Below are positions 5,456 through 39,420 of a stretch of 42,350 nt of DNA, piece after piece; position 1 is the first letter of the stretch; every line of letters begins with the position of its first letter. The position numbers and the translations under genes are program-made. The stretch is from assembly GCA_017554305.1 (NCBI GenBank), contig JAFZIN010000004.1, positions 1 to 42,350 of the forward strand, written 5' to 3'. This DNA comes from Bacteroidales bacterium. GTDB taxonomy: Bacteria > Bacteroidota > Bacteroidia > Bacteroidales > UBA932. The notes beneath the pieces are model-generated. The model did not search any database and was not told the origin of the DNA. It saw only the letters and a list, made by a program, of their open reading frames with translations.

Positions 5456-5487
5456 CATTCTTTTAAGGAGTGCGTCATATTGGTGGA

Positions 5488-13400: not shown

Positions 13401-14078
13401 CTACTTCTCAAAGGATTGGAAGCTTCCGTCTGAGTAAAAGAGAATCACTCTCTCCAAACTTTTTTGCTTTTCCTCCTTCTTCTCTTTAATCTCCTCTTTT
13501 ACCTCCTCTTTTACCTCTTCTGCTTCTATTTTCTTCCCGATAGATGGGCGTTTTACCTCGTTTACGCCACTCTCAAGAGGTTCAGAAGGGGCCTTTTCTT
13601 CTGCAATATCCTTATTTACAGTCTCTTCCAACTGTTTGAGCCGTTGCGCCAGTTCTCCATCTTCCAGAGGCGGGAAAGGGCTGTATTGGAGTTTTTCCTC
13701 TTCAAACGGGAAATCCTGCTCATCTTCCTCCGGAAATCCGAACAGATTGCTGCTGTTTGCGTCTGAATTACGCAAAACGTTGGTTTCTTCAGATTTTTGA
13801 TTATTTGCGTTAAATTCACGCAAAGTCATAGAGTCACTCAGAGACTCTCCGCGGAAATTTTTCTCACTGTTCCGGTAGGGTTGGCCAACTCCGGTGAGCA
13901 ACCACTCAATATTCAAATTCGGCAATTTTGTCAGTACGGAAAGAATGAAGTCATAACTTGGATTGTTACGTCCGCTCATAAGGTTGGAAAGGGTAGATCT
14001 CTGGATGCCCAAAAGAGTGGCCAGTTGGGCGGCGGTTATTCTTTCCAGGTTGAGGATGGTCTGTAAACGCTCTTTCAT
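13401..14078 (-). CDS. XRE-family helix-turn-helix regulator with charged low-complexity linker
   Basis: The 225-residue protein has an N-terminal Cro/C1-type HTH (residues 1-65: ERITAAQLATLLGIQRSTLSNLMSGRNNPSYDF, then NIEWLLTG). A long polar and acidic middle follows, and a Lys/Glu-rich stretch (about 180-212, repeats of EVKEE/EIKEKKEE), likely coiled or disordered. A short hydrophobic tail VILFYSDGSFQSFEK ends it. The layout is common in Bacteroidales; no function is established to my knowledge. It has its own promoter (14100-14131) and faces an unusually large intergenic region containing repeated TGCGCA sites, so autoregulation is plausible. pyrD follows after 34 bases. Confidence 0.85.
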   Translation of the reverse strand: MKERLQTILNLERITAAQLATLLGIQRSTLSNLMSGRNNPSYDFILSVLTKLPNLNIEWLLTGVGQPYRNSEKNFRGESLSDSMTLREFNANNQKSEETNVLRNSDANSSNLFGFPEEDEQDFPFEEEKLQYSPFPPLEDGELAQRLKQLEETVNKDIAEEKAPSEPLESGVNEVKRPSIGKKIEAEEVKEEVKEEIKEKKEEKQKSLERVILFYSDGSFQSFEK

Positions 14079-14606: not shown

Positions 14607-15836
14607 TTGAATTTGGAGCCTGTTATTAAAATATCTGATTTCACCTACCCTCTCCCAGATGAGAGGATAGCAAAATACCCCCTGGCGGAGAGAGACTCTT
14701 CCAAGCTTCTGGTCTATAAAGATGGCAGAGTTTTGGATGATACCTTTTATAATATAGCCTCCCATATTCCCCAGGATTCCTTTATGGTTTTCAACAATAC
14801 CAAGGTGGTTCCGGCAAGGCTGTTTTTCCGGAAAAAAACGGGTGCTTTGATTGAGATTTTGTGCCTGAATCCGGTCTCTCCTGCCGAATATATTGGCTCT
14901 TTTTCCTCAAAAAAGAGCTGCAGCTGGTCTGTTGTGGTGGGAAATGCCAAGAAATGGAAGGGCGGAGAACTCTATTTTTACTCTGATTCTATAGGAAAAG
15001 AGCTCAATTTTAGGGTGGAACTGCTTCAAAAGGGAGAAAAAACCTCCGTAGTTCTCTTTAAATGGGATACAGATGAGACCTTTTCAGAGGTTTTGGACAG
15101 ATGCGGAAAGGTACCAATTCCTCCATATCTGAACAGAGATACTGAAGAGATAGACAAGAAGAGATATCAGACAATTTACGCCCGTTTTGAGGGGTCTGTG
15201 GCCGCTCCTACGGCCGGTCTGCATTTTACGGACAGGGTGCTTAACTCTCTGGATAATAAGAATATAAAGAGAGAAAACGTCTGCCTTCACGTGGGTGCGG
15301 GAACATTTGCTCCGGTTAAGAGTGAATTTATATCTGATCATCAGATGCACTCAGAGCCATTCTCCGTATCAAAGGAGTTTCTGAAAGACCTTGTAAAGGC
15401 GGTTAAAAAGGGCTCTGTAGTGGCGGTGGGAACCACCTCCACAAGGACTCTGGAATCTTTATATTATATTGGCGTTCAGTGTATTGAGCATCCTAATGAG
15501 ACCATAAGGCCGGTTTCCCAGTGGGAGCCCTACAACAGGGAGTATAAGTATGATATTTCAGAGGCTCTGGAGGCCATAGTGAGCTATTTGGACTCCCGCT
15601 CCCTTTCTCAGCTGATAGCCGCAACATCTATAATAATTGTTCCGGGGTTCAAATACAGGGTTGTGGATATGCTGGTAACCAACTTCCACCAGCCGCAAAG
15701 CACTCTGTTACTGCTCATTTCCGCCTTTATTGGAGATGACTGGAGGGCTCTATACACCCACGCTCTGGAGAGCGGATACCGTTTTTTAAGTTACGGAGAC
15801 AGCTCTCTTCTTTTCAAAAACCGGAAAATTTTGTAA
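14607..15836 (+). CDS. QueA-like S-adenosylmethionine:tRNA ribosyltransferase-isomerase
   Basis: The 409-residue protein shows QueA family motifs in order: DFTYPLPDERIAKYP at the start, FMVFNNTKVVPARL, GLHFTDRVL, VCLHVGAGTFAPVKSE with HQMHSEPF, VGTTSTRTLE, and NFHQPQSTLLLLISAF. QueA transfers a ribosyl group from AdoMet to preQ1 in tRNA to give epoxyqueuosine. The protein is longer and more divergent than classic QueA (about 350 residues), so a paralogue with altered function is possible. No ATG precedes the conserved start and an in-frame TAA sits at 14604, so initiation must use TTG at 14607 or 14613. The acyltransferase gene follows after 25 bases. Confidence 0.85.
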   Translation: MNLEPVIKISDFTYPLPDERIAKYPLAERDSSKLLVYKDGRVLDDTFYNIASHIPQDSFMVFNNTKVVPARLFFRKKTGALIEILCLNPVSPAEYIGSFSSKKSCSWSVVVGNAKKWKGGELYFYSDSIGKELNFRVELLQKGEKTSVVLFKWDTDETFSEVLDRCGKVPIPPYLNRDTEEIDKKRYQTIYARFEGSVAAPTAGLHFTDRVLNSLDNKNIKRENVCLHVGAGTFAPVKSEFISDHQMHSEPFSVSKEFLKDLVKAVKKGSVVAVGTTSTRTLESLYYIGVQCIEHPNETIRPVSQWEPYNREYKYDISEALEAIVSYLDSRSLSQLIAATSIIIVPGFKYRVVDMLVTNFHQPQSTLLLLISAFIGDDWRALYTHALESGYRFLSYGDSSLLFKNRKIL

Positions 15837-21885: not shown

Positions 21886-22382
21886 TGACTACAGAGGAAC
21901 TCAATTTAAAGCTATCCAAAATACTTGTAAGAAAGAGACTTACAATAGGTACCTGTGAATCCTGCACCGCGGGTAGAATTGCCTCCGCACTTACAAGTCT
22001 TGACGGAGCCTCCAGATACTTCAGAGGCTCAATTCTGACATACGCTACAGAGCTTAAAACCAAGCTGTTGGGAATAGCAGCAGAGCAGATAGAAAAGCAT
22101 GATGTAGTAAGCTCTTACGTGGCAAAAAAGATGGCCCTTGCGGCCCTTTCTATTCTTGAAACTGATATTGCGATAGGTATAACGGGCTATGCAGGAGCCA
22201 CCGGCGGCACTTTGGTCTCACCGGCCGGAACTGTCTGGATTGCAGCGGCATTCAAAGGGAAAGACCCTTGTGCAAAACCAAAGGTTTACACAAAGGTCCT
22301 TCATCTTTCCGGCAACCGATTGGAGAACTTAACCGGTGCGGTTAATGCATCACTGCAATTGGTTCTCCGTTACTTACTATAA
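21882..22382 (+). CDS. Stand-alone CinA C-terminal (PncC) domain protein
   Basis: The 166-residue protein matches only the nicotinamide-nucleotide amidase domain: [62 protein letters not shown]. Compared with the domain in the full CinA at 11002, AESCTGG is CESCTAG and GIAGPDGG is [11 protein letters not shown]. Substrate use may therefore differ. The start overlaps the glycerophosphodiesterase stop (ATGA at 21882), and the 3' end overlaps the convergent hbd gene by 13 bases. It is a probable NMN deamidase; catalytic competence is not certain. Confidence 0.82.
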
Positions 22383-23215
22383 TCGTAGAAGCCCTTGCCG
22401 GTTTTGCGGCCGAGCAAGCCTGCACGTACCATCTTTCTGAGAAGCGGATGAGGACGGTACTTGCTGTCTCCGAACTCGTTGTAGAGAACCTCCATAATAG
22501 CAAGGCATACATCCAAACCAATAAGGTCTCCCAGAGCCAGAGGGCCCATAGGGTGGTTAGCACCCATCTGCATTGCGGCGTCAATCTCCTCCTTGGTTGC
22601 AATGCCGTCTGCAAGAATTCCAACTCCCTCGTTTACAAGAGGAATGAGGATTCTGTTAACAACAAAACCAGGAGCCTCGTTTACAGATACAGGGCACTTG
22701 CCAATAGCCTTTGCAATCTCAACAACCTTATCATGAACCTCCGGGGAGGTAAGCTGTCCCTTAATAACCTCTACAAGTTTCATAAGAGGTACAGGGTTGA
22801 AGAAGTGCATACCAATCACATTCTGAGGTCTTTGTGTAAAGGCTGCAATGGCGGTGATTGAGAGTGAAGAGGTGTTGGATGCCAGAATAGCCTCTGGTTT
22901 GCAGACCTTATCAAGGGTCTCCCAAATCTCTTTCTTTACAGCCATATCCTCGGCTACAACTTCAATTACAAGATCTGCATCTTTGAGGTCATTGTAATCC
23001 ATTGTGTCTTTGATTCTTGCAAGAATCTGATCTTTAACCTCAGCCTCCATCTTTCCCTTCTCAACGCTCTTTGTGAGGAATTTTTCAATAGCCTTGTGAG
23101 CTCTTCCCAGAGAAGCCTCGCTGCGGCCTTTAAGAAGTACATCGTGGCCGGCGGTTGCAAAAGCCTGTGCAATGCCGTGACCCATTGTTCCGTTACCTAC
23201 AACTGCAACTTTCAT
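22370..23215 (-). CDS. hbd: 3-hydroxybutyryl-CoA dehydrogenase
   Basis: The 281-residue enzyme reduces acetoacetyl-CoA to 3-hydroxybutyryl-CoA with NAD(P)H. It has the Rossmann motif [12 protein letters not shown] at residues 5-16, then SNTSSLSI, the catalytic-His motif [15 protein letters not shown], and [11 protein letters not shown]; the C-terminal domain ends [14 protein letters not shown]. Length is the normal 280-290. It is the second gene of a crt-hbd unit that diverges from the lysine operon. It is not needed for the core lysine pathway, but it lets acetoacetyl-CoA made by AtoDA be reduced back toward butyryl-CoA. Confidence 0.95.
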
Positions 23216-23251: not shown

Positions 23252-24031
23252 CTATTTGTTTTTCCACTCCGCCTCTCTCTTCTCAAAGAAGGCCTTCATT
23301 CCCTCTTTCTGATCTTCTGTTGAGAAACACTCTGCAAAGAGGTTGTTCTCAATGGAAATGGCGGTGTCTATATCTGTCTGCATTCCTCTGTTAATGGCCT
23401 CTTTGCTCAGTTTGAGGGCAATAGGGGCGTTCTTGGCAATGGTTTTGGCAAGAGATTTTGCCTCATCCATAAGTTTCTCCGGCTCTACCACTCTGTTAAC
23501 CAGACCTATGCGCAGAGCCTCATCTGCAACTATAGCCTTGGCGGTGAAGATAATCTCCTTGGCTACGCCCTCTCCCACAATTCTTGGGAGGCGCTGAGTG
23601 CCTGAGAAACCGGGAGTTATACCCAATCCAACCTCCGGCTGACCAATTTTTGCCTTGGCTGAGGCAACGCGGATATCACAACTTAAAGCGAGTTCGCATC
23701 CTCCGCCCAGAGCAAAGCCGTTAATGGCCGCAATGGTTGGTTTTGAGAGGTTTTCAATCTTGCGGAAGACCTTTGAGCCCTGCACTCCGAACTCTTTGCC
23801 CTCAAGGGCGTTCATAGTGCTCATTTGAGAGATGTCTGCACCGGCAACAAAGGCGCGTCCCTCACCGGTGAGAATAACCACTCTAACCTGCTCATCTTTT
23901 TCTATTTGGGTGAATGCATCATCCAACTCTGAGAGAGTCTCGGAGTTGAGGGCGTTCATAGACTGCGGGTTGTTGATCTTAACCGTGCAGATATTGCCCT
24001 CTTTCTCAATAATCAGTGTTTTGTATTCCAT
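23252..24031 (-). CDS. crt: Crotonase / short-chain enoyl-CoA hydratase
   Basis: The 259-residue crotonase-fold enzyme has the oxyanion-hole segments FVAGADI (about 62-68) and INGFALGGGCELALSCD, and both catalytic glutamates: the first in GGGCELAL and the second in GQPEVGLGITPGF. It interconverts 3-hydroxybutyryl-CoA and crotonyl-CoA. Context (hbd downstream after 36 bases, bcd-etf nearby) fixes the C4 role better than sequence alone. It is first in the minus-strand unit, with its -7 box at 24060-24067 and the shared palindrome upstream. Confidence 0.94.
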   Translation of the reverse strand: MEYKTLIIEKEGNICTVKINNPQSMNALNSETLSELDDAFTQIEKDEQVRVVILTGEGRAFVAGADISQMSTMNALEGKEFGVQGSKVFRKIENLSKPTIAAINGFALGGGCELALSCDIRVASAKAKIGQPEVGLGITPGFSGTQRLPRIVGEGVAKEIIFTAKAIVADEALRIGLVNRVVEPEKLMDEAKSLAKTIAKNAPIALKLSKEAINRGMQTDIDTAISIENNLFAECFSTEDQKEGMKAFFEKREAEWKNK

Positions 24032-24059: not shown

Positions 24060-24067
24060 CAAATTTA
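24060..24067 (-). promoter_or_regulatory. -7 promoter box for crt-hbd
   Basis: TAAATTTG on the minus strand fits TAnnTTTG. The box ends 29 bases before the crt start codon. The 26-bp palindrome begins 20 bases further upstream, where the -33 region should lie. Confidence 0.6.
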
Positions 24068-24086
24068 CCAAAAAATATCCTGAAAT

Positions 24087-24112
24087 AAAATATAACAACG
24101 TTGTTATATTTT
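24087..24112. promoter_or_regulatory. Perfect 26-bp palindrome, candidate operator of the divergent crt-hbd and lysine operons
   Basis: The half-site AAAATATAACAAC (24087-24099) is followed directly by its exact reverse complement (24100-24112). It lies between two divergent -7 boxes (minus at 24060-24067, plus at 24126-24133) and covers the -33 region of the plus promoter. A perfect gapless palindrome of this length is the form expected for a dimeric (TetR- or MarR-like) regulator. A hairpin role is unlikely because there is no loop and no gene ends here. No regulator gene is adjacent. Confidence 0.75.
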
Positions 24113-24125
24113 TCATTTTTTTTAT

Positions 24126-24133
24126 TATATTTG
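24126..24133 (+). promoter_or_regulatory. -7 promoter box for the lysine fermentation operon
   Basis: TATATTTG fits TAnnTTTG. A TTG at 24101-24103, inside the palindrome, lies 22 bases upstream and may serve as the -33 element. Transcription would begin near 24140, about 39 nt before the atoD start. Confidence 0.65.
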
Positions 24134-24178: not shown

Positions 24179-24853
24179 ATGGACAAAAGAATTTCTTTAC
24201 AGGAAGCCGTTTCCAAAATTAAGGACGGAATGACAATCATGGTAGGCGGATTTCTTTCTGCCGGTTCTCCTCTTGACATCCTGGACGCTCTTGCAAAAAG
24301 CGATGTAAAAGATCTGACTCTTATCTCCAATGATACTGCATACCAGGGAGTTGGAGTAGGTAATCTAATTGGAGCCCATAAGATTAAGAAGCTCTATGTT
24401 TCTCACATTGGAACAAATCCGGACACTGCAGCTCAGATGAATGCAGGTGAACTTGAGATTGAATTCTGCCCTCAGGGAACTTTGGCAGAGAGAATCCGCT
24501 GCGGCGGAGCAGGCCTTGGCGGAGTGCTCACAACTACCGGTATGGGTACGGTAATAGCTGACGGTAAGCCAACTGTAGAGGTTGACGGCAAGACTTATCT
24601 CTTGGAGAAACCTCTTCATGCAGACATTGCTCTTATTGGCGCTACCGTAGCAGACGAGAGAGGTAACTGCGTATATGTAGGTACATCTCAGAACTTTAAC
24701 CCTCTTATGGCAACTGCTGCAGATGTAGTTATTGTTGAGGCAGAGAAGATTGTTCCTGCAGGTGAGATTGCACCTGAGGCTGTTATTACCCCTCACGTGT
24801 TTGTAACTCACATCTACCAGTCTACTAATAATTTACAGAAAGTAAGAGAGTAA
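24179..24853 (+). CDS. atoD: Acyl-CoA:acetoacetate CoA-transferase alpha subunit
   Basis: The 224-residue protein is a family I CoA-transferase subunit [19 protein letters not shown] near residues 22-40, [33 protein letters not shown], and [10 protein letters not shown]. With the beta subunit (33362) it moves CoA from butyryl-CoA to acetoacetate, releasing butyrate and giving acetoacetyl-CoA. It is the first gene of the operon, one base before kal, while its partner lies 8.5 kb downstream. The name follows the role known in lysine fermenters; sequence alone allows other short-chain acyl-CoA donors. Confidence 0.92.
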
Positions 24854-24854
24854 T

Positions 24855-25244
24855 ATGGGAGCAAAATCACTTATCAGAGTAAGAATGGGCGGAGAGGACG
24901 CTCATTACGGCGGAGGTCTTGTAGACGGAGCACACATGCTCAAACTCTTTGGAGACGTTGCAACAGAACTTCTGATTATCAATGACGGAGACGAGGGTCT
25001 CTTTAAGGCATACGATAATGTAGAGTTCATAGCTCCCGTATATGCAGGAGATTACATTGAGGCTACAGGTGAGATAACCAACGTTGGCAATACATCACGC
25101 AAGATGACATTTGAGGCAAGAAAGGTGATTGCACCTCGCCCTGATGTATCTGATTCTGCGGCAGATGTACTCTCTGAGCCTATAGTAGTGTGCCGCGCAA
25201 GCGGAACCTGCGTTGTTCCTAAAAAATGTCAGAGAAAGGGTTAA
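24855..25244 (+). CDS. kal: 3-aminobutyryl-CoA ammonia-lyase
   Basis: The 129-residue hotdog-fold protein fits Kal in size and sequence ([22 protein letters not shown] at the start, then [17 protein letters not shown]). Kal removes ammonia from L-3-aminobutyryl-CoA to give crotonyl-CoA, the sixth step of lysine fermentation. Its place between atoD (1 base) and kce (6 bases) is as in other kam clusters and is strong supporting evidence. No signal or membrane segment is present; it acts in the cytoplasm. Confidence 0.93.
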
Positions 25245-25250
25245 CGGGTT

Positions 25251-26084
25251 ATGGATAAGCTGATTATTACTGCCGCAATATGCGGTGCAGAGGTAACCAA
25301 AGAGCAGAATCCTGCCGTTCCTTACACTGTAGATGAGATAGTTAGAGAGGCTAAGAGCGCAGTTGACGCCGGTGCCGCAATTGTTCATCTGCACGTAAGA
25401 AGAGATGACGGAACTCCTACTCAGGACCGCGCCCGTTTTCAGGAGTGCGAAGAGGCAATCCTCAAGGTCTGCCCGGATGTTATTCTGATTCCGTCTACCG
25501 GCGGAGCAGTAGGCATGACCCCTGATGAGAGACTGCAATCTACTGATACTGACCCTAGACCAGAGATGGCAACTCTTGACTGCGGAACCTGCAACTTTGG
25601 TGACGAGATATTTGACAACACTCTTCCAACCATGCGCGCATTTGGAAAGCGTATGATGGAGCGTAACATAAAGCCTGAGTATGAGTGCTTTGAGATGGGT
25701 CATCTGGATTCCATCCTCAACCTTGTACGCAAAGGTCAGGCTCCGGGAGCACCTATGCAGTTCAACTTTGTGCTGGGAGTACCGGGCTGTACACCTGCAA
25801 CGGTGGGCAACCTCTGGTGGCTCGTAAACGCCATTCCTTCAGGCAGTACCTGGACCGTAACCGGTGTGGGACGCCACGCATTCCCAATGGCTGCAGCAGC
25901 AATTGCAATGGGCGGAAACGTAAGAGTTGGATTTGAAGACAACCTCTATCTCTCAAAGGGTGTTCTGGCTCCGTCCAACGGCGCTCTGGTTGAGAAGGTT
26001 GTACGTCTTGCCAACGAGTTGGGACGTCCTGTTGCAAACAGCCACGAGGCCAGAGAGATCTTAGGCCTGGCTCCTAAGAAATAG
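25251..26084 (+). CDS. kce: 3-keto-5-aminohexanoate cleavage enzyme
   Basis: The 277-residue TIM-barrel enzyme of the BKACE (DUF849) family condenses 3-keto-5-aminohexanoate with acetyl-CoA and cleaves it to 3-aminobutyryl-CoA and acetoacetate. The zinc ligands His46 and His48 (IVHLHVR) and the acidic ligand Glu229 (VGFEDNLY) are in place. Other conserved stretches are STGGAVGMTPDERL and GVGRHAFPMAAAAI. Length is typical. Of the many BKACE substrates, this one is fixed by the neighbours kal and kdd. Confidence 0.95.
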   Translation: MDKLIITAAICGAEVTKEQNPAVPYTVDEIVREAKSAVDAGAAIVHLHVRRDDGTPTQDRARFQECEEAILKVCPDVILIPSTGGAVGMTPDERLQSTDTDPRPEMATLDCGTCNFGDEIFDNTLPTMRAFGKRMMERNIKPEYECFEMGHLDSILNLVRKGQAPGAPMQFNFVLGVPGCTPATVGNLWWLVNAIPSGSTWTVTGVGRHAFPMAAAAIAMGGNVRVGFEDNLYLSKGVLAPSNGALVEKVVRLANELGRPVANSHEAREILGLAPKK

Positions 26085-26127
26085 TTTAATTAACTGAATA
26101 TTAATTTAAAACAAATAGAATATCGAT

Positions 26128-27201
26128 ATGCAAAAACATGGAAATCGCTACGGTACCCACCGTGTAATTGAGCCTGTTGGCGTTCTGCCACAGCCTGCAA
26201 ACAAGTTGGACAACAATATGGATGAGATTTATGATAACGAGATCCTTATTGACGTTCAGACACTTAACATAGATTCTGCTTCCTTTACAGATATTCACAA
26301 CTACGCCAAATCACAGGCTAAGAACCCTAACGATGAGGCTGAGGTAAAGGAGGAGATTAAGAAAGAGATGCTCCTTAACGTTGAGCTTCAGGGCAAACAC
26401 CGTAACCGTAGAACCGGTTCCGGAGGTATGCTTCTGGGAACAGTTGAGAAGATTGGTGACGCTCTTAAGGGAAAGATAGACCTTAAAGAGGGTGACCGCA
26501 TTGCAACACTTGTATCACTCTCTCTGACTCCGCTCCGCATTGATGAGATTCTGAACATCAAAGCAGATGTAGATCAGGTAGATATAAAGGGTAAGGCAAT
26601 TCTCTTTGAGAGCGGTATTTACGCAAAGATTCCTAACGATATGCCGGAGAAACTTGCACTCTCCGCTTTGGATGTTGCAGGTGCTCCTGCACAGACTGCA
26701 AAGCTTTGCCAGTGCGGCCAGAATGTAGTTATTCTGGGTGCAGGCGGAAAGAGCGGAATGCTCTGCTGCTATGAGGCTAAGAAGAGAGTAGGCGTTACAG
26801 GTAAGGTTATTGGTCTGGCTAACAGCCCAAGATCTACCAACCGTATTAAGGAGCTGGGATTCTGCGATGTAGTAGAGAGCGTAGCAGGTATGACTCCTAT
26901 TCAGGTTAACGAACTGGTTGCACGCCTTACAGACGGCAAGATGGCAGACGTTACCATCAACTGTGTAAATGTGCCTGACTGTGAGATGACTGCAGTGCTC
27001 TGCACAAGAGACGGCGGTACAGTTTACTTCTTCTCAATGGCTACAAGCTTTACAAAGGCAGCTCTTGGAGCAGAGGGTATTGGTGCAGACGTTAACATGA
27101 TAATCGGTAACGGTTACACTAAGGGTCACGCAGAAATTACTCTGCAGGAACTCCGTGAGTGTGAGAAACTTAGAAAAATATTTGAAGAACTTTACGCATA
27201 A
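26128..27201 (+). CDS. kdd: L-erythro-3,5-diaminohexanoate dehydrogenase
   Basis: The 357-residue NAD(P)-dependent oxidative deaminase converts 3,5-diaminohexanoate to 3-keto-5-aminohexanoate plus ammonia and NADH. The N-terminus HGNRYGTHRVIEPVGVLPQPA is characteristic. A Rossmann segment VVILGAGGKSGMLCCYEAK lies near residues 198-218, and the protein has an alcohol-dehydrogenase-like overall order. It starts 43 bases after kce, the largest gap in the first half of the operon, and ends 4 bases before kamA. Confidence 0.94.
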   Translation: MQKHGNRYGTHRVIEPVGVLPQPANKLDNNMDEIYDNEILIDVQTLNIDSASFTDIHNYAKSQAKNPNDEAEVKEEIKKEMLLNVELQGKHRNRRTGSGGMLLGTVEKIGDALKGKIDLKEGDRIATLVSLSLTPLRIDEILNIKADVDQVDIKGKAILFESGIYAKIPNDMPEKLALSALDVAGAPAQTAKLCQCGQNVVILGAGGKSGMLCCYEAKKRVGVTGKVIGLANSPRSTNRIKELGFCDVVESVAGMTPIQVNELVARLTDGKMADVTINCVNVPDCEMTAVLCTRDGGTVYFFSMATSFTKAALGAEGIGADVNMIIGNGYTKGHAEITLQELRECEKLRKIFEELYA

Positions 27202-27205
27202 TATT

Positions 27206-28513
27206 ATGGCAGTTTCCAGAAGAAAACAGCTGTTTCCGGAAGTTACAGACCAGCAGTGGAATGACTGGAAGTGGCAGGTACGCAACAGGATAGAGACTCT
27301 TGAGAAGCTTAAGAAATACATAAAGCTTTCCAAAGAGGAGGAGGAAGGTATTCGTAAGTCTCTGAAGACCATAAGGATGGCCATTACTCCATACTATCTG
27401 AGCCTTATAGATCCTAATAATCCGGAAGATCCGGTACGCAAGCAGTGTATTCCTACAATTCAGGAGACTCACCGTGCCGAGGCAGATTTGCTGGATCCTC
27501 TTCATGAGGATACAGACTCTCCTGTTCCGGGGCTTACTCACCGTTATCCGGACAGAGTACTCCTTCTTATAACTGACATGTGTTCAATGTATTGCCGTCA
27601 CTGCACCAGAAGAAGATTTGCAGGCCAGAAGGATGCTGCAACCTCTATGGATAATGTGGAGAAGGCAATTGAGTACATAAAGAACACTCCTCAGGTAAGA
27701 GACGTTCTCCTCTCCGGAGGTGACGCTCTTATGGTTCCGGATGAGAGACTGGAGTACATCATTCAGAAACTCCGCAAGATTAAGCATGTGGAGATCATTA
27801 GAATTGGTTCCAGAACTCCGGTTGTATGTCCTCAGAGAATTACTCCTGAGCTTTGCAATATGCTCAAGAAGTACCACCCAATTTGGCTGAATACGCACTT
27901 CAATCATCCTCAGGAGGTTACGCCTGAGTCTGCAGCAGCCTGCGCACGTTTGGCAGATGCCGGCGTTCCGCTGGGTAACCAGTCTGTGCTGCTCAGAGGC
28001 ATAAACGATTGCGTGAACATTCAGAAGAAGTTGGTTCACGAGCTTGTAAAGATGAGAGTAAGACCATATTACATCTATCAGTGTGACTTATCTATGGGTC
28101 TGGAGCACTTCCGTACTCCTGTATCCAAGGGTATTGAAATCATTGAGGGTCTGAGAGGTCACACCAGCGGATATGCAGTTCCTACGTTTGTAGTGGATGC
28201 ACCTGGCGGAGGCGGAAAGACTCCTGTAATGCCTAACTACGTTATCTCACAGGCCCCTGGCAAGGTGGTTCTCAGAAACTATGAGGGCGTTATTACAACT
28301 TACACTGAGCCTGAGGATTACAAGTTTGACAAGTGCAACTGCAAGTTCTGCAAGGAGAACAAGGAGTGCGAGGGTGTGGTATCACTTCTGGCAGGTAAGG
28401 CTATGACTATTCAGCCTGCTCACCTGGCAAGAGAGGACCGCGCAAAGAAGTACAAAGCTTCACTTGCAAAGAAGGCAGCAGCAAAGAAACCTGCCAAGAA
28501 GGCAAAGAAGTAA
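27206..28513 (+). CDS. kamA: Lysine 2,3-aminomutase (radical SAM, PLP)
   Basis: The 435-residue enzyme converts L-lysine to L-beta-lysine. The [4Fe-4S] cysteines are Cys126, Cys130 and Cys133 (MCSMYCRHC). The PLP lysine is Lys338 (DAPGGGGKTP). The substrate-binding aspartates are Asp294 and Asp331, and the probable zinc cysteines are Cys269, Cys377, Cys379 and Cys382. All correspond to the Clostridium subterminale enzyme with shifts of one or two. The frame is open from 27155 inside kdd, but the ATG at 27206 matches the family start. After the conserved end there is a Lys/Ala-rich tail of about 20 residues (ending AKKPAKKAKK), not usual in the family. Confidence 0.97.
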   Translation: MAVSRRKQLFPEVTDQQWNDWKWQVRNRIETLEKLKKYIKLSKEEEEGIRKSLKTIRMAITPYYLSLIDPNNPEDPVRKQCIPTIQETHRAEADLLDPLHEDTDSPVPGLTHRYPDRVLLLITDMCSMYCRHCTRRRFAGQKDAATSMDNVEKAIEYIKNTPQVRDVLLSGGDALMVPDERLEYIIQKLRKIKHVEIIRIGSRTPVVCPQRITPELCNMLKKYHPIWLNTHFNHPQEVTPESAAACARLADAGVPLGNQSVLLRGINDCVNIQKKLVHELVKMRVRPYYIYQCDLSMGLEHFRTPVSKGIEIIEGLRGHTSGYAVPTFVVDAPGGGGKTPVMPNYVISQAPGKVVLRNYEGVITTYTEPEDYKFDKCNCKFCKENKECEGVVSLLAGKAMTIQPAHLAREDRAKKYKASLAKKAAAKKPAKKAKK

Positions 28514-28527
28514 GTAGTTGAGCGGCA

Positions 28528-29547
28528 ATGTCTTTCATTAGTGAGATACAAAAATTCAAGTCTCTCTCAATTGTAGGACTTGAGAAGAACACGGGAAAGA
28601 CAGTGTGCCTGAATTATATCCTGGAAAGGTTACCGTCAACCGGTTACAGTGTGGCGGTAACCTCTATAGGGATAGACGGGGAGAGTAAAGATCAGGTTAC
28701 GGGGACGCAAAAGCCTGAGATTGTGCTTAAAGAGGGTACAATCTTCTCCACATCGGAGGTCTTCTACGCAAGAAGAAGACTCCTCTCAGAACTGCTGGAG
28801 ATAACCAATGAGAGAAGTTCTCTGGGCAGGATTGTAACTGCCAGAGTATTAAGGAGAGGGAAGGTTCTGCTGAGCGGCCCTTCATCTGCCCAGGCCCTTA
28901 AAAGATGGGTGAAAGGGGTGGAGAAGTTCTCTCCCAGCCTCACGATAGTTGACGGAGCTTTGTCTCGTTTGAGCAGTGCTTCTCCCGTTGTGAGCGAGAG
29001 TTTGATTCTGACTACAGGTGCGGCCTATTCCGTTGATATGGCCACACTTGTAAGAAGAACAAAGTTTATTGTAGAACTGGTGGGGTTAGATAAGGCGGAG
29101 GAGGAGATTTGCTCCGCATTTGATGATAAGGAGATTGGCGTGTGGGGATTGGACATTGAGGGGCAACTTATTGATTTCCACTTGGAATCATCTCTTACCA
29201 TAGACAGTTCCAAGGAGGATATTACAGGCAGGAGCAAGGCTGTTTATGTTGCGGGAGCGCTCACAGACAGGTTTTTAAAGATGATTGCAGACTGCCCTAG
29301 AGTGAAGGAGATAACGCTTGTGGTGAGAGATTTTACAAAGATCTTCGTTACGGAGGAGGCGTACCGGAGTTTTCTTAAGAGGGGTGGTTGTATTAAGGTC
29401 CTCCAAAAGAGCCGTTTGATTGCGGTTTGTGTTAATCCGGTCTCCCCAAGGGGAATTGTTTTAGACTCGGATGTATTGTGCAGGAAAATGTATGAGGCAG
29501 TTAAAGTGCCTGTATATGATATAGTTAAAAACAGAGAGACTATTTAA
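28528..29547 (+). CDS. kamB: Lysine 5,6-aminomutase reactivase subunit KamB
   Basis: The 339-residue protein is identified by position between kamA and kamC, as in other lysine fermenters, and by size. It has a P-loop-like segment near the start, VGLEKNTGKTV (residues 16-26), one residue longer than the standard G-x4-GKT and similar to MobB-like loops. A DGALSR segment follows around residues 140-145. KamB and KamC are thought to restore the B12-dependent aminomutase after inactivation; direct evidence is limited, so this is family knowledge rather than something visible here. No membrane segment is seen. Confidence 0.85.
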   Translation: MSFISEIQKFKSLSIVGLEKNTGKTVCLNYILERLPSTGYSVAVTSIGIDGESKDQVTGTQKPEIVLKEGTIFSTSEVFYARRRLLSELLEITNERSSLGRIVTARVLRRGKVLLSGPSSAQALKRWVKGVEKFSPSLTIVDGALSRLSSASPVVSESLILTTGAAYSVDMATLVRRTKFIVELVGLDKAEEEICSAFDDKEIGVWGLDIEGQLIDFHLESSLTIDSSKEDITGRSKAVYVAGALTDRFLKMIADCPRVKEITLVVRDFTKIFVTEEAYRSFLKRGGCIKVLQKSRLIAVCVNPVSPRGIVLDSDVLCRKMYEAVKVPVYDIVKNRETI

Positions 29548-29548
29548 G

Positions 29549-30949
29549 ATGTTGTTTAGGGATTATTTGGAAATACCGTGCGGACTGAGGTTCATGTTTG
29601 ACACTTTGCAGCTGCTTTCTTCCTGCGGCCGCAACCGTCTGCTTGATTCTCAGCTTATGGTATCCAAAGATGAGGTGGAGAGGGCAATCTCCTTGCTTAA
29701 AGGAAGTTATGAGAAGTTATACAATGACGTTACTCCTCAGGTTTCATCCGAACTTGCTGCCCTTAAACACCGTCTTATGTGTTTGAGAGAGATTGAGGGA
29801 ACCCTTCAGAGACTGAAGAAGGATGTGGTTCTGGATGATATAGATCTCTTTGAAATAAAATACGCATCTCTGCTTGCAGGATATGTGAGGGCAGGCGTGG
29901 AAAACCTTGGCCTAGAGGGTGTTAATATACCGGATCTTACAGATGCGGTAAAGATACTGGACCCGGACGGAATGAAGATAGAGAGCTTCTACGTTTATGA
30001 CTCTTACTCAAAGGAGCTGGGAAGAATAAGGGCGGAGATTAGGCCTCTTCAGGCTCCCGATATGGCGGGCAAACAGTCTGACAGGCTTTTGGAACTGCTT
30101 GAGAAAGAGCGCCTTTTGGAAAGAGATATAAGAGAGGAACTCTCAAAGAAACTTAAAAAGCGTTCCTCTGAGATCCGTGCGGCCATAAACGCCATGGGAG
30201 ATTTGGATATTCTCCTTGCCAAGTGTTTGCAGGTTAAGACAATGGGGCTCTGCTTCCCAACTGTTTCCACAGACGGGAATACAGAGTACAAGGGGATGTT
30301 CCATCCTCATATTGTTGAAATATACCGCTCGCTTGCGGAGAGATACTCTTCTAAGGCAAAGGAGTTTACCCCAATAGATATCTCCTTTGGCAGAGAGAGC
30401 GTTACCATAATAGGGGCCAATATGGGCGGAAAGAGCGTGGTTTTGAAGATGTGCGCTCTTAACCAGCTGCTATTCCAGTTTGGGTTTGGAGTGGCTGCAA
30501 AAGAGTGTAAAATAGACATTAAGGAGGATGTAAAGGTTTGCATAGGTGATGAGCAGAATGAGACTGAAGGGCTCTCCTCTTTTGCGGGTGAAGTCAGGGC
30601 CATCGAGAGAGTATTGGAAAGCGTAAGAAGCGGAAAGTGCATACTGGCCTTGATTGACGAGCCGGCAAGAACAACCAATCCTATTGAGGGTACGGCACTT
30701 GTGGCGGCACTGCTTAACATCCTTAGGGGTAAGAACTTATCCTCTGTAATGACAACCCATTACAATGTGCCTGGAGAGTTCTTCCGCCGCCTGAGGGTGA
30801 GGGGTCTTAAAGAGGGGAAGATGGATTACACTCTGGTGCCTACTTCAGAGGGGGAGATTCCTCATGAGGCCATTAATGTTGCCCGCAGCCTGGGTGTTGA
30901 TCCTCAATGGCTTAGCGAGGCGGAGAAGATATTGGGAGAAGATAATTAA
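29549..30949 (+). CDS. kamC: MutS-like ATPase KamC, probable lysine 5,6-aminomutase reactivase
   Basis: The 466-residue protein combines a helical core like the MutS lever/clamp region (residues about 40-270) with a MutS/ABC-type ATPase domain. Walker A is GANMGGKS at residues 289-296. A signature-like segment GLSSFAGEV follows, then Walker B ILALIDEPARTTNP. The mismatch-recognition domain of MutS is absent, so it is not a repair protein. It starts one base after the kamB stop. Together they probably use ATP to exchange damaged cobalamin on KamDE, by analogy with other B12-mutase reactivases. Confidence 0.88.
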   Translation: MLFRDYLEIPCGLRFMFDTLQLLSSCGRNRLLDSQLMVSKDEVERAISLLKGSYEKLYNDVTPQVSSELAALKHRLMCLREIEGTLQRLKKDVVLDDIDLFEIKYASLLAGYVRAGVENLGLEGVNIPDLTDAVKILDPDGMKIESFYVYDSYSKELGRIRAEIRPLQAPDMAGKQSDRLLELLEKERLLERDIREELSKKLKKRSSEIRAAINAMGDLDILLAKCLQVKTMGLCFPTVSTDGNTEYKGMFHPHIVEIYRSLAERYSSKAKEFTPIDISFGRESVTIIGANMGGKSVVLKMCALNQLLFQFGFGVAAKECKIDIKEDVKVCIGDEQNETEGLSSFAGEVRAIERVLESVRSGKCILALIDEPARTTNPIEGTALVAALLNILRGKNLSSVMTTHYNVPGEFFRRLRVRGLKEGKMDYTLVPTSEGEIPHEAINVARSLGVDPQWLSEAEKILGEDN

Positions 30950-30985
30950 AAGAAATAATAAGTACTTCACAAAAAAGTATAAACG

Positions 30986-32545
30986 ATGCAGAGTAAATTA
31001 GGTTTAGATTTTAAAAAGGTTGAACAGGCAAAGTCCCTTGCAGAGAAGGTGGCTGTTGAGGTTCAGCAGTTTGTGGAGCGCTATACCACTGTGGCAACGG
31101 AGAGGACCGTTGCGCGTGCGCTGGGTATTGACGGAGTTGACGAGAGCAACGTTCCGCTGCCTAGCGTGCTGGTAGATTCGCTCAAAGAGAAGGGGGTGCT
31201 TGGGCAAGGTGTTATGTTCTACATAGCCAACGCTATGATTAACACCGGATTGCAGCCTCAGCAGATAGCTGAAAAGATTGCTTTTGAAGGCTATGACATT
31301 ACAAAGGATGCAAAAGTTACAGACCCCGTTAAGTTGCAGCAGGTTCTGCAGCCGGTTATTGACGCTACAATTAACCGTATAAGGGAGAGAAGATTACGCA
31401 GAGAGCAGTACATTAAGGAGTACGGAGAGGATACGGCACGCCCTTACATCTACGTTATTGTGGCAACCGGTAACATCTACGAGGATGTGGTTCAGGCCCA
31501 GGCTGCGGCCCGCCAAGGTGCTGATATCATTGCAGTTATACGTACTACCGGTCAGTCTCTGCTGGACTATGTTCCTTACGGCGCTACTACTGAGGGATTT
31601 GGAGGAACCTTTGCAACCCAGGAGAACTTCCGCATAATGCGAAAGGCTTTGGATGAGGTAGGTGAGGAATTGCATCACTACATCCGTCTATGTAACTACT
31701 GTTCAGGTCTTTGTATGCCGGAGATTGCCATTATGGGTGCTCTTGAGGGATTGGACGTTATGCTTAACGACGCCCTCTACGGTATTCTCTTCAGAGATAT
31801 CAACATGCAGAGAACCCTCATTGACCAGTACTTCTCCAGAATCATAAACGGCTTTGCAGGCGTTATCATCAATACCGGTGAGGATAACTACCTTACAACG
31901 GCAGATGCTATTGAAGCGGCTCATACGGTATTGGCGTCAGACCTTATAAACGAGCAGCTTGCACTCTTTGCAGGACTGCCTGAGGAGCAGATGGGACTGG
32001 GCCACGCATTTGAGATGGATCCTATGCACAAGAACGGATTCCTTATGGAACTTGCTCAGGCTCAGATGACAAGAGAGATCTTCCCTAAGGCTCCGCTCAA
32101 GTACATGCCGCCTACAAAGTTTATGACGGGTAACATCTTCAGAGGTCATATTCAGGATGCGCTCTTCAATATTGTGGGAATTTGGACACACCAGGGAATT
32201 CAGCTTCTGGGTATGCCTACGGAGGCTATCCACACTCCGTTTATGAGTGACCGTTTCCTCTCAATTGAGAACGCAAGATATATCTTCAACAATATGCACG
32301 ATATTGGAGAGGAGGTTGAATTCAAAGAGGACGGTATTATCCGCAACCGTGCTAAAGAGGTGTTGGACAATGCAATAGCATTGCTTACAGAGATGACCAC
32401 AGAGGGTCTTTTCAACACTCTGGAGCAGGGTAAGTTTGGAGACGTTAAGCGTCCAAAGAACGGAGGTAAAGGATTGGACGGCGTTACCGAGAAGGGTGCC
32501 AACTACTTCAATCCATTTGTTGAACTAATGAAAGGGAGGAAGTAA
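30986..32545 (+). CDS. kamD: Lysine 5,6-aminomutase alpha subunit
   Basis: The 519-residue large subunit of the adenosylcobalamin- and PLP-dependent aminomutase moves the 6-amino group of beta-lysine (or D-lysine) to C5. It opens with KLGLDFKKVEQAKSLAEKVA and contains the TIM-barrel segments YIYVIVATGNIYEDVVQAQAA, RTTGQSLLDYVPYGATTEG and LCNYCSGLCMPEIAIMGALEG, as in the clostridial enzyme. Its size is normal. The beta subunit follows after 2 bases. The mutase is cobalamin-dependent, but no cobalamin riboswitch or B12 transport gene is seen in this window. Confidence 0.96.
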   Translation: MQSKLGLDFKKVEQAKSLAEKVAVEVQQFVERYTTVATERTVARALGIDGVDESNVPLPSVLVDSLKEKGVLGQGVMFYIANAMINTGLQPQQIAEKIAFEGYDITKDAKVTDPVKLQQVLQPVIDATINRIRERRLRREQYIKEYGEDTARPYIYVIVATGNIYEDVVQAQAAARQGADIIAVIRTTGQSLLDYVPYGATTEGFGGTFATQENFRIMRKALDEVGEELHHYIRLCNYCSGLCMPEIAIMGALEGLDVMLNDALYGILFRDINMQRTLIDQYFSRIINGFAGVIINTGEDNYLTTADAIEAAHTVLASDLINEQLALFAGLPEEQMGLGHAFEMDPMHKNGFLMELAQAQMTREIFPKAPLKYMPPTKFMTGNIFRGHIQDALFNIVGIWTHQGIQLLGMPTEAIHTPFMSDRFLSIENARYIFNNMHDIGEEVEFKEDGIIRNRAKEVLDNAIALLTEMTTEGLFNTLEQGKFGDVKRPKNGGKGLDGVTEKGANYFNPFVELMKGRK

Positions 32546-32547
32546 AG

Positions 32548-33336
32548 ATGAGTGAAGGTCTGTATTCAATGGAGGCCAAGAATTATGACAAGACGCTTGA
32601 CCTCAAGAAAGTAAAGCCTTACGGAGATACCATGAATGACGGAAAGGTGCAACTGAGTTTCACCCTTCCTGTTCCGGCAGGTCCGGAGGCAATAGAGGCT
32701 GCAAAGCAGCTCATTAAGAAGATGGGATTTGAGAATCCTCTGGTGGTCTTCTCTCAGGAGCTGACACCGGGCTTCACATTCTTTAACTGTTACGGAAGTC
32801 TCACTCACACTGTTAATTACGCAGATATCTACGTTCCAAAGGTAGATTCTAAAGTGATGAGTATGGAGGCTACGGACGAGTTCATCTCCCAAAAGATAGG
32901 ACGTCCGCTGGTAGTTGTTGGTGCAAGTACCGGAACGGATGCGCATACTGTTGGTATTGACGCAATTATGAATATGAAGGGTTATGCGGGTCACTACGGA
33001 TTGGAGAGATACAAGATGATTGAGGCGCACAACCTGGGTAGCCAGGTGCCTAACGAGGAGTTCCTTGCAAGGGCTATAGAACTCAAGGCCGATGCGCTTC
33101 TGGTATCTCAGACGGTAACTCAGAAAGACGTTCATATTCAGAACCTTACAAACCTTATAGAATTGATGGATGCAGAGGGGTTGAGAGACAAGATGATAGT
33201 GGTTTGCGGAGGCGCCAGAATATCCCACGAACTTGCAAAAGAGCTGGGTTATGATGCCGGATTCGGCACGAATACGTACGCCGATGATGTGGCGTCATTT
33301 ATCGCGGAGGAATATGTAAAAAGACACAATAAATAA
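32548..33336 (+). CDS. kamE: Lysine 5,6-aminomutase beta subunit (B12- and PLP-binding)
   Basis: The 262-residue small subunit carries the cobalamin-binding Rossmann domain. The DxHxxG motif is Asp131-Ala-His133-Thr-Val-Gly136, where His133 should be the lower cobalt ligand. Lys144 (NMKGYAG) matches the lysine that forms the internal aldimine with PLP in the clostridial enzyme. Later parts GSQVPNEEF, ALLVSQTVTQKDVH and VVCGGARIS are usual for the B12 domain. The preserved numbering of His133 and Lys144 argues for a working enzyme. It follows kamD by 2 bases. Confidence 0.96.
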   Translation: MSEGLYSMEAKNYDKTLDLKKVKPYGDTMNDGKVQLSFTLPVPAGPEAIEAAKQLIKKMGFENPLVVFSQELTPGFTFFNCYGSLTHTVNYADIYVPKVDSKVMSMEATDEFISQKIGRPLVVVGASTGTDAHTVGIDAIMNMKGYAGHYGLERYKMIEAHNLGSQVPNEEFLARAIELKADALLVSQTVTQKDVHIQNLTNLIELMDAEGLRDKMIVVCGGARISHELAKELGYDAGFGTNTYADDVASFIAEEYVKRHNK

Positions 33337-33361
33337 CTAAAACATTTTAAAATATAGGATT

Positions 33362-34027
33362 ATGGATAAACAACAAATCAGAGAGTTTATTGCAAAACGT
33401 GCCGCTCTGGAGATTAAAGACGGTGACGTTGTAAATCTTGGAATTGGACTTCCTACTCTTATTCCTAACTATCTACCTGAGGGTGTTACTGTTACAATCC
33501 AGTCTGAGAACGGTTGCCTTGGTATGGAGGCAGATCCTGCACTCAGCGGCGGCAAGAGAGATACCCATTGGATTGATGCCGGCGGCGGATACATCTCTTA
33601 CGAGAAGGGTGCTGCTTCATTTGACTCTGCAACAAGCTTTGGTATGGTCAGAGGCGGTCATATCAACGTTACTTTCCTTGGTGCTTTGGAGGTAGACGAG
33701 AAGGGTGACCTGGCTAACTGGATTATCCCTGGCAAGAAGGCTCCGGGAATGGGTGGCGCAATGGACCTTTTGGTTGGCGCTAACAAGGTGATTCTCACCA
33801 TGGAGCACACTGCTAAGGGCAACCCTAAGATTCTTAAGAAATGCCATCTTCCGTTAACCGCTGCAGGTCAGGTAAATATGATTATCACGGAGATGGGTGT
33901 TATGAACATCACTCCGGAGGGAATAGTTCTGAGCGAGATCAACCCTGAGTTTACGGTTGAGCAGGTTCAGGCTGCAACGGAGGCTACTCTTATCATTGCC
34001 AAAGACTTAAAGAAGATTGAACTTTAG
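33362..34027 (+). CDS. atoA: Acyl-CoA:acetoacetate CoA-transferase beta subunit
   Basis: The 221-residue protein is a family I CoA-transferase subunit B. Residues 26-33 (LGIGLPTL) bind CoA, and the catalytic glutamate is Glu49 in QSENGCLGME. Downstream are SFGMVRGGHINVTFLGALEVD and ANWIIPGKKAPGMGGAMDL. It pairs with the alpha subunit at 24179, separated by eight genes, which is unusual because atoD and atoA are often adjacent. Releasing butyrate while activating acetoacetate links the lower and upper parts of the pathway. Confidence 0.94.
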   Translation: MDKQQIREFIAKRAALEIKDGDVVNLGIGLPTLIPNYLPEGVTVTIQSENGCLGMEADPALSGGKRDTHWIDAGGGYISYEKGAASFDSATSFGMVRGGHINVTFLGALEVDEKGDLANWIIPGKKAPGMGGAMDLLVGANKVILTMEHTAKGNPKILKKCHLPLTAAGQVNMIITEMGVMNITPEGIVLSEINPEFTVEQVQAATEATLIIAKDLKKIEL

Positions 34028-34038
34028 AATTTATAAAT

Positions 34039-35181
34039 ATGGATTTTGAACTTACTAAATCTCAGAAACTGTTTCAGCAGATGATTAGAGAGTTTGCCGA
34101 GAAAGAGGTAAAACCTATTGCTGCTGAGGTGGATGAGGAGGAAAAATTTCCTACCGAGAATGTCAAGAAACTTGGCGCTCTTGGAGTTTTGGGTATTCCA
34201 ACTCCAAAGAAATACGGCGGAGCAGGTGGAGACCATGTAATGTATACCGTTGCAGTTGAGGAACTTTCAAGAGTTTGTGCAACTACCGGTGTTATTGTTT
34301 CCGCTCACACTTCCCTCTGTGAGGATGCTATTCTGGATAACGGAACTGAGGAGCAGAAGATGAAGTACCTTCCTAAACTTGCCAGCGGCGAGTGGATTGG
34401 TGCATTCGGTCTTACAGAGCCTAACGCAGGAACTGACGCTTCCGCTCAGCAGACTATGGCTGTTGAGGACGGTGATGATTACATCCTTAACGGAACTAAG
34501 ATCTTCATCACCAACGCAGGTGAGGCTGATGTTTATGTAATTGCCACAATGACAGATAAATCCAAGGGCAACAAGGGTATCACAACCTTCATAGTAGAGG
34601 CTACTACTCCTGGTTTCTCAATTGGTAAGAAGGAGCACAAGATGGGTATCCGCGGAAGTGCTACCTGCGAGCTTATCTTTGAAAACTGCAGAGTTCCAAA
34701 GGCTAACATGCTTGGCGCACTTGGCGGAGGTTTTGCAGTTGCTATGAAGACTTTGGACGGCGGCCGTATAGGTATTGCCGCTCAGGCTCTTGGTATTGCT
34801 CAGGGTGCTATGGATGAGACAGTTAAGTACTGCAAAGAGAGAAAGCAGTTTGGCAAGTCTCTCTCTCAGTTCCAGAACACTCAGTTCCAGCTTGCAGACC
34901 TTCAGACAAAGATTGAGGCAGCTCGTCTTCTGGTAAGAAGCGCTGCCTGGAAGAAAGACCACGGAATGCCGTTCTCAGCAGATGCCGCAATGGCAAAACT
35001 CTTTGCTGCAGAGACAGCTATGGAGATGACTACCAAGGCTGTACAGTTCCACGGCGGTTATGGTTACACAAGGGAATATCCAGTTGAAAGAATGATGAGA
35101 GACGCTAAGATTACAGAGATCTACGAGGGTACCTCAGAGGTTCAGAGAATGGTTATTGCCGGCAAATTGTTCAAGAAGTAA
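34039..35181 (+). CDS. bcd: Butyryl-CoA dehydrogenase (acyl-CoA dehydrogenase)
   Basis: The 380-residue flavoenzyme reduces crotonyl-CoA to butyryl-CoA. It shows the acyl-CoA dehydrogenase signatures GAFGLTEPNAGTDAS, FITNAGEADVYVI, and near the end GYGYTREYPVERMMRDAKI. The catalytic base Glu363 is in EIYEGTSEVQR, the position expected for short-chain enzymes. It is followed after 12 bases by etfB and then etfA, as in electron-bifurcating Bcd-Etf complexes, where NADH oxidation is split between crotonyl-CoA and ferredoxin. Bifurcation is inferred from context and from homologues. Confidence 0.95.
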   Translation: MDFELTKSQKLFQQMIREFAEKEVKPIAAEVDEEEKFPTENVKKLGALGVLGIPTPKKYGGAGGDHVMYTVAVEELSRVCATTGVIVSAHTSLCEDAILDNGTEEQKMKYLPKLASGEWIGAFGLTEPNAGTDASAQQTMAVEDGDDYILNGTKIFITNAGEADVYVIATMTDKSKGNKGITTFIVEATTPGFSIGKKEHKMGIRGSATCELIFENCRVPKANMLGALGGGFAVAMKTLDGGRIGIAAQALGIAQGAMDETVKYCKERKQFGKSLSQFQNTQFQLADLQTKIEAARLLVRSAAWKKDHGMPFSADAAMAKLFAAETAMEMTTKAVQFHGGYGYTREYPVERMMRDAKITEIYEGTSEVQRMVIAGKLFKK

Positions 35182-35193
35182 AAAGTATTGATT

Positions 35194-35976
35194 ATGAATA
35201 TAGTAGTTTGTGTAAAACAGGTACCGGACACTACGGTTGTTAAGATAGATCCGGTAAAGCACACTCTTATAAGAGATGGCGTTCCTTCCATTATGAATCC
35301 CGATGATAAGGGCGGACTGGAGCTTGCCCTTCAGCTGAAGGAGAAGTGTGGTGCTAATGTAACTGTAATCACTATGGGTCCTCCTCAGGCAGACCTCGTT
35401 TTAAGAGAGGCTTTTGCAATGGGAGCAGACAGGGCTATCCTTCTTACCAGCAGGGCATTTGCAGGTGCAGACACTCTTGCAACTTCAAACGCTCTTGCAG
35501 GCGCATTGAGGGCTATCCCTTACGACCTTATTATCACAGGCCGCCAGGCAATTGACGGTGATACCGCACAGGTAGGTCCGGAAATGGCTGAGCACCTTGC
35601 ACTTCCACAGGTATCTTACGTTGTGGACTGCGAGTACAAGGGTGGCAACAACTTCAGAGTTAAGAAGGAGACCGAGGATGGTTATGAGATTCTGGATGTT
35701 GAGGGTCCTGCAGTATTTACCGTTCTTGCTTCCGGTTACAAGGCCAGATATATGAGCGTTGGCGGTATAGTTGACGCTTTTGACCGTGAGGTTGAAATCT
35801 GGACAGAGGCTAACCTTGATCTTGATCCTGGTAAACTTGGTCTTAAGGGCTCACCTACAAAGGTTATGAAGGCATTCACAAAGGCTACCAAGGCTGCAGG
35901 TCAGGTTTATGAAGTTGATGCTGAGCAGGCTGTGGATGTTATCATTTCCAAGATGAAAGAGAAATTTATTATTTAA
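35194..35976 (+). CDS. etfB: Electron transfer flavoprotein beta subunit
   Basis: The 260-residue protein starts NIVVCVKQVPDTTVVKIDP, which is typical of the EtfB of anaerobic Bcd-Etf systems. DLIITGRQAIDGDTAQVGPE contains the family signature for flavin/AMP binding, and the end has the recognition loop region. The ATG at 35194 is preferred over the in-frame TTG at 35188, because the family begins with M-x-I-V-V-C-V-K. It forms the heterodimer with EtfA, encoded 19 bases downstream. Confidence 0.95.
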   Translation: MNIVVCVKQVPDTTVVKIDPVKHTLIRDGVPSIMNPDDKGGLELALQLKEKCGANVTVITMGPPQADLVLREAFAMGADRAILLTSRAFAGADTLATSNALAGALRAIPYDLIITGRQAIDGDTAQVGPEMAEHLALPQVSYVVDCEYKGGNNFRVKKETEDGYEILDVEGPAVFTVLASGYKARYMSVGGIVDAFDREVEIWTEANLDLDPGKLGLKGSPTKVMKAFTKATKAAGQVYEVDAEQAVDVIISKMKEKFII

Positions 35977-35995
35977 TTGCCTAATACTGAAAGAG

Positions 35996-39408: not shown

Positions 39409-39420
39409 AATTAGGCGGTT

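Follow-up and report, generated by a model that had tools for sequence, protein, structure and literature searches.

A 26-bp palindrome between the divergent promoters of a lysine-butyrate locus, found in a stretch of 42,350 nucleotides from a Bacteroidales bacterium (the window, analysed at its full length), may be a solitary copy of an element whose copies cluster near dif, in the part of the chromosome where replication ends, and which would be bound there by a protein in a layout like that of matS; we give this reading almost even credence. It is built on features that can be read in the genomes themselves: the box within the palindrome, its conservation, the 21-bp phasing of paired boxes, their low copy number, their closeness to a putative dif and their occurrence in places where a promoter is not to be expected. 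To these it adds two steps of interpretation, namely that a dedicated protein would bind the box, and that this protein would organise, anchor or help finish replication of the terminus near dif, like MatP on matS.

The palindrome in the divergent promoter region

The palindrome (AAAATATAACAACGTTGTTATATTTT) spans positions 24087-24112 of the window and, when read directly, proves to be perfect and gapless, just as a preliminary description of this DNA had claimed; it is the sole match in the window at up to three mismatches, and none of 100 dinucleotide shuffles of the window yielded a palindrome match. Positions 24091-24108 within it hold the 18-bp box TATAACA-N4-TGTTATA, which is the unit found family-wide and which is solitary here, without a partner box at 21 bp. 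The same description had placed a -7 box on either side, and matches to TAnnTTTG, the Bacteroidetes -7 consensus, do stand at 24126-24133 on the forward strand (TATATTTG, the lysine operon promoter) and at 24060-24067 on the reverse strand (TAAATTTG, toward crt), the distances from the palindrome centre to the G of the two boxes being 34 and 40 bp.

The gene content is also as described. On the reverse strand lie crt (short-chain enoyl-CoA hydratase, 23252-24031) and, beside it, hbd (3-hydroxybutyryl-CoA dehydrogenase, 22370-23215), and they diverge from a 13-gene lysine operon on the forward strand that begins with the gene for an atoD-type CoA-transferase subunit (24179-24853; named after the preliminary description and for its place beside an AtoA-type gene) and continues at 24855-37003 with the remaining lysine/butyrate genes, namely those for Kal-like, Kce (BKACE), Kdd, KamA, KamB, KamC, KamD, KamE, AtoA-type, acyl-CoA dehydrogenase, EtfB and EtfA proteins. 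Past the operon, 37645-41328 holds a pair of oppositely directed genes, one for an iron-only hydrogenase and the other upstream of it; elsewhere in the window, QueA (14607-15836), of 409 residues, is matched by a 346-position model in two stretches, as with an insertion. The remark that no regulator is encoded nearby holds only in part, since the window contains a CI-like XRE regulator gene (13401-14078, reverse strand, 10 kb from the palindrome and not favoured as the source of its binder) as well as a gene for an ECF sigma factor (5470-6012), neither of which is tied to the palindrome. The XRE regulator gene also adjoins pyrD in the loci read from two other genera of the family, g10 and g21.

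A genome-wide search for the half-site, as had been proposed, was carried out in the source genome (G000; 1.82 Mb in 32 contigs, 89% complete). The sequence AACAACGTTGTT is present twice, the other copy (L002:1501-1512) lying within an apparent ORF, and the core ATAACAN4TGTTAT occurs exactly once; at one mismatch this core has 14 forward matches, as against 9 with the reversed control.

Conservation of the palindrome upstream of orthologous atoD genes was checked within the window's own genus, which we take to be Candidatus Egerieousia, using 20 atoD loci, the twentieth of which (L027) stops at a contig edge. The sequence TAACAN4TGTTA, with a varying centre, is kept in 17 of the 19 loci with upstream sequence and is absent from L035 and L036; across 80 named loci it stands within 200 bp of atoD in 18, all of them among the 20 loci nearest the window. 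The longer core ATAACAN4TGTTAT is found in 34 of 39 genus genomes, as one copy in 22 of them and as two copies in 12, compared with 11 matches in 9 genomes for its reversed control. For 26 of these 34 genomes, the site was read in the gap that precedes atoD, a count that leaves out likely sites of G206, G207 and G214; in G190, G201, G204, G208 and G211 the sole match is not before atoD, and the G190 contig ends at that gene. The central four bases of the box vary among the 26 atoD loci, and in a variation profile of the 25 loci with full flanks only the flanks and the centre are informative, because these loci were selected by the core. The comparison supports the palindrome as a conserved and, to judge from its form, protein-site-like element of the divergent gap.

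Boxes in Egerieousia are mostly solitary, a partner at 21 bp being present for 1 of 33 distinct boxes. The second boxes of the genus are single and lie partly within ORFs, and three recur in genome pairs: in the gap between cinA and a serine hydrolase gene (G086, G205), at the start of an ORF of 918-920 residues (G061, G130) and in a gap that borders a lipoprotein-like gene (G003, G190). The second exact box of G003 is intergenic (C1:1100227, L091), and a box of G190 (C21:2883, L099) lies beside a related gene.

The position of the palindrome brings to mind an operator, on which one dimeric repressor bound over the -33 region would switch the lysine operon and, where the promoter is close, crt-hbd. 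Among the alternatives to the terminus reading, this role at the lysine promoters ranks first, and we regard it as doubtful. It agrees with the presence of the box in the atoD gap of 17 of the 19 Egerieousia loci, with the single occurrence of the exact core in the source genome, with boxes upstream of atoD in several g10 genomes, and with the identity of the gene opposite atoD, which is crt, or mscS and then crt-hbd, in the Egerieousia (g1) loci with readable upstream genes. The distance from the box centre to the end of TAnnTTTG, 33-38 bp in 26 distinct loci, can be read both ways: it is confined to a narrow range, but it drifts by half a helical turn. Against an operator stand the regulator searches and the XRE promoters described below and the distribution of the box in other genera, where it is not limited to lysine-pathway promoters and is found also in convergent gaps, inside ORFs and near dif. 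Of the proposal of a single repressor for the lysine operon and crt, the conserved element in the divergent gap is supported, and a dedicated operator for these genes is not established. As the terminus reading has it, the Egerieousia form would be a single perfect box between crt or mscS and atoD; since the -33 region of the lysine promoter is covered by this solitary box, its binding protein could in addition act on that promoter locally. The case cautions against taking every perfect palindrome between divergent promoters for an operator and nothing more.

Single boxes and 21-bp dyads in the GTDB family

In the GTDB family of the window, WTATAACAN4TGTTATW has matches in 75 of 398 genomes. 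Thirty loci were found with a single-box pattern and were not selected for pairs; in them, a partner exactly 21 bp away accompanies 28 of 36 boxes, and each of the other distances between 14 and 60 bp is represented at most twice. The resulting dyad, TAACAN4TGTTA-N7-TAACAN4TGTTA at up to two mismatches, is present in 199 of the 398 family genomes, as against 13 of 398 for the reversed dyad control, and a genome that bears it has between one and five copies. These genomes belong to 14 of the 25 genera of the family, no dyad being found at this threshold in the other 11. Across the order, at up to one mismatch, the dyad appears in 5 of 393 genomes, that is, in 3 of 6 family members and in 2 of 387 others, and one of these last two matches is a simple repeat. 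The 18-bp box TATAACA-N4-TGTTATA would most simply be the site of one protein dimer, and since boxes 21 bp apart are separated by two turns of the helix, a pair of dimers on the dyad would occupy the same face of the DNA.

The gene neighbourhoods of the element differ from genus to genus. Besides its position upstream of atoD, the g10 box occurs between cinA and a serine hydrolase gene; in g21 it is placed where queA and an antiporter gene meet at their 3' ends, and in g22 boxes follow cinA, adjoin rarA/pyk or precede mscS. Recurrent tyrS-like matches in g21 (L271, L272) turned out to be coding sequence and were discarded as elements. A set of 59 distinct dyads, from which dyads less than 400 bp from a stretch end and six loci outside the family had been dropped, was sorted by position: 24 have co-directional genes on either side, 14 have convergent genes, 12 lie within ORFs and 9 separate divergent genes. 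Most of the 14 convergent cases derive from two orthologous gaps, queA/antiporter and cinA/dipeptidase. Convergent or in-ORF positions, where a transcription operator is not expected, thus account for 26 of the 59, and there the palindromic element is independent of promoters. Three of the in-ORF cases (L289, L299 and L301) belong to a hydrolase-like gene of g10 in which the codons of an N-x-x-V-T peptide, in a seven-residue repeat, spell the dyad; these may be coding artefacts. Among the matches listed, the dyad shares a contig with atoD in five g5 genomes, at a distance of 22-31 kb, and in three g11 genomes, at 16-20 kb, and both genera also carry dyads on contigs without atoD. Such distances of 16-31 kb speak against an operator of the lysine genes, and it seems that a region, rather than one gene, is kept.

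The positions of several dyads, after stop codons or between convergent genes, would also suit AT-rich bidirectional terminators or cruciform hairpins that need no sequence-specific protein, and the four stretches that were folded gave strong hairpins (z from -3.75 to -5.70). This explanation is nonetheless very improbable: the sequence of the arms, and not pairing alone, is kept in 17 of 19 loci that were picked through atoD, independently of the box; the 21-bp phasing, for which there was no selection, has no use in a terminator; and the Egerieousia box is upstream of both of its neighbouring genes. The complementarity between the N4 centres of the two boxes (1.84 as against 1.57 of 4, reached in 84 of 5000 permutations) is slightly above that of the permutations, and a long single hairpin across the whole dyad, which draws little from this excess, was set aside.

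Position of the element relative to a putative dif

A dif-like core of 21 bp that includes the XerD arm, ACAATTTATATTATGTTAAAT, is identical in G010 (position 1,228,461), G111 (about 71,952), G143 (contig C19), the source genome (C11, about 50,301; position 1920 of L014) and G003 (1,838,655), occurs once in the DNA examined of each, and is met within two mismatches in six g22 genomes. It is situated near rlmD and rarA and, from its sequence, location and synteny, is probably dif, the site of chromosome dimer resolution. GC skew and coding-strand bias place the terminus at about 1.8-1.96 Mb in G003, a complete genome, and at about 1.26-1.35 Mb in G010, the skew switch near the terminus being noisy and the skew of G003 flipping more than once. 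A prediction of dif exists for 19 of 19 Bacteroidetes (PMC3025954), and dimer resolution is described as not having been studied in any member of the group (PMC3091885).

Dyads lie 2-38 kb from the putative dif in seven genomes and 30-92 kb from it in an eighth, distances that are limited by the extent of the stretches compared. The individual values are 2.2 and 27.6 kb in G010, 8.1 kb in G058, 5.0 and 22.3 kb in G041, 12.3 and 38.2 kb in G189, 2.7 kb in G306, 4.6 kb in G308 and 6.0 kb in G022, and, in the eighth genome, G111, 29.7, 81.1 and 92.2 kb; in G143 a single in-ORF box is about 0.7 kb from dif. The core was present in 6 of 12 element-centred regions (344 kb), where 0.14 would be expected, and absent from the other 6; four of the 12 had been chosen as known neighbours of rarA, and with the rarA-side regions excluded it was present in 3 of 8, where 0.09 would be expected (P 1e-4).

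The gathering was also assessed by gene context, the 68 dyad loci collapsing by orthology into 17 distinct contexts. Seven of these fall, when mapped on G010, within the 180-kb region around its dif, which makes up 6.8% of the chromosome (P 7e-5), and six map into a wider, 520-kb region of G003, for which 23% would be expected, so that the excess there is not significant (P 0.19). Nine contexts map to neither region, and two of them are near in other ways: that of g5, with atoD 22-31 kb away in five genomes, and that of the hydrolase gene, which corresponds to the G111 dyad 29.7 kb from dif. An earlier control by slices (1 of 75 slices) was unfair for G010, because 51 of the 75 slices came from that genome and the remainder had been chosen outside the terminus, and it was replaced by the share of the chromosome together with the collapsed orthologous loci.

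Three observations in Egerieousia count against the terminus reading: the box is mostly solitary, 130 kb separate the atoD box of G003 from dif, and the second exact box of that genome, at 1,100,227, is about 0.74 Mb away. The box of the source genome is on contig C25 and the dif core on C11, so their distance is not readable there. On C11 a box with three mismatches (49882-49897, in L014) lies within an ORF about 420 bp from dif, and it could be due to chance.

A fork trap of the polar kind would orient its sites, and this was not seen consistently: the stronger box of the dyad is on the side toward dif in 4 of 10 dyads, or in 5 of 13 when those of G111 are included, although it does face dif in all the rarA-side dyads of G058, G306 and G308.

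The half-site ATATAACA differs in one of eight bases from the outer part of the XerD arm of dif, ATTTAACA, and for this resemblance XerD was counted as a rival: the boxes would then be accessory XerC/XerD-type sites near dif, serving for example to unload SMC, as XerD does in Bacillus subtilis. Unloading of SMC by XerD at the terminus has been described (PMC12322038). The half-sites of the box, however, are separated by 4 bp and the matching bases of dif by 12 bp, so that two Xer monomers could not sit on the box as they do on dif, and a likeness of this degree would arise by chance about once in 50 by our own estimate. Accessory Xer sites are therefore an improbable explanation.

The terminus reading can be extended to a Bacteroidota terminus system not described so far, in which a dimeric protein would read TATAACA-N4-TGTTATA boxes, often paired as dyads two helical turns apart; set around dif, these would serve to organise the terminus or to halt forks or SMC there. 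Egerieousia would have been reduced to one main box within the lysine-butyrate divergent promoter, where the state of the terminus and catabolism may be coupled. This fuller proposal is put forward tentatively.

Candidate proteins and known systems

The searches for a protein that binds the box with the TetR_N, HTH_Crp_2 and Arg_repressor profiles, together with the examination of PadR and XRE genes, did not find one. The preliminary description had guessed at a TetR-like factor; TetR_N has no match in the source genome and 2-4 in each of the other four of the five genomes searched, which goes against the guess, though the source genome is 89% complete and the absence of a TetR protein from it is therefore not certain. 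The profile of CRP/FNR proteins, HTH_Crp_2, has no match in the source genome either, with matches in one of the five genomes searched. Inspection by eye of the upstream side of the lysine operon in 24 further loci, including one from Photobacterium, showed no consistent regulator. Rex, considered as the regulator of crt operons in clostridia, has half-sites that point the opposite way to those of the box.

Two further candidates were examined and rejected. PadR looked promising from a perfect box upstream of a padR operon (G166) and a one-mismatch site beside padR in the source genome, but the latter site coincides with the ribosome-binding and start region of padR, and G178 and G209 lack it. 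As for the XRE gene, its promoter in g10 and g21 carries palindromes of the TTTACA type, different from the box, the best box there having at least two mismatches. Up to three TTTACAwwTGTAAA-like palindromes precede the CI-like xre gene (L264-L269, L273-L275), in what looks like a multi-site operator of its own.

Sites specific to the terminus are known from few groups, as Tus/Ter, RTP/Ter and MatP/matS, and the last of these belongs to the Ter macrodomain of enterobacteria and Vibrio. Searches of open-licence PubMed Central papers on terminus sites, on Egerieousia and on the regulation of lysine fermentation in Bacteroidales turned up no account of the site considered here. The dyad makes the handling of the terminus in Bacteroidota testable, and its copies near dif in one Bacteroidales family provide a defined bait for finding a binding protein; membership of the MatP/matS or the RTP/Ter system is not claimed.

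Two further systems resemble the element. The ARG boxes of ArgR are 18-bp palindromes repeated at 21 bp, and the same dimensions here suggested ArgR as the binder; that candidate was dropped, Arg_repressor having no match in the eight genomes searched and the half-site of the ARG box being another one. The parS sites of ParB are likewise few, palindromic and gathered in one chromosomal zone, but the present element is on the side of the terminus and not of the origin, and its sequence is unlike the canonical parS.

The likeness to MatP/matS lies in palindromic sites, putatively of the terminus region, that are both genic and intergenic and are not tied to promoters; the differences are another sequence, fewer sites and the arrangement as tandem dyads. 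One paper (PMC7188993) describes MatP as confined to enteric bacteria, and a Vibrio cholerae paper names it 71 times. Tus/Ter of Escherichia coli would share the placing of sites around dif at the terminus, but Ter is asymmetric and bound by a monomer, Tus being called a polar monomer in PMC10331603, whereas the sites here are palindromes. Compared with RTP/Ter of Bacillus subtilis, the element differs in that each of its boxes is a true palindrome, in its 21-bp spacing and in showing no consistent polarity with respect to dif; the two adjacent dimer-binding boxes of Ter, one weaker than the other (PMC10331603), are nevertheless what the two-box layout of the dyad would also recall.
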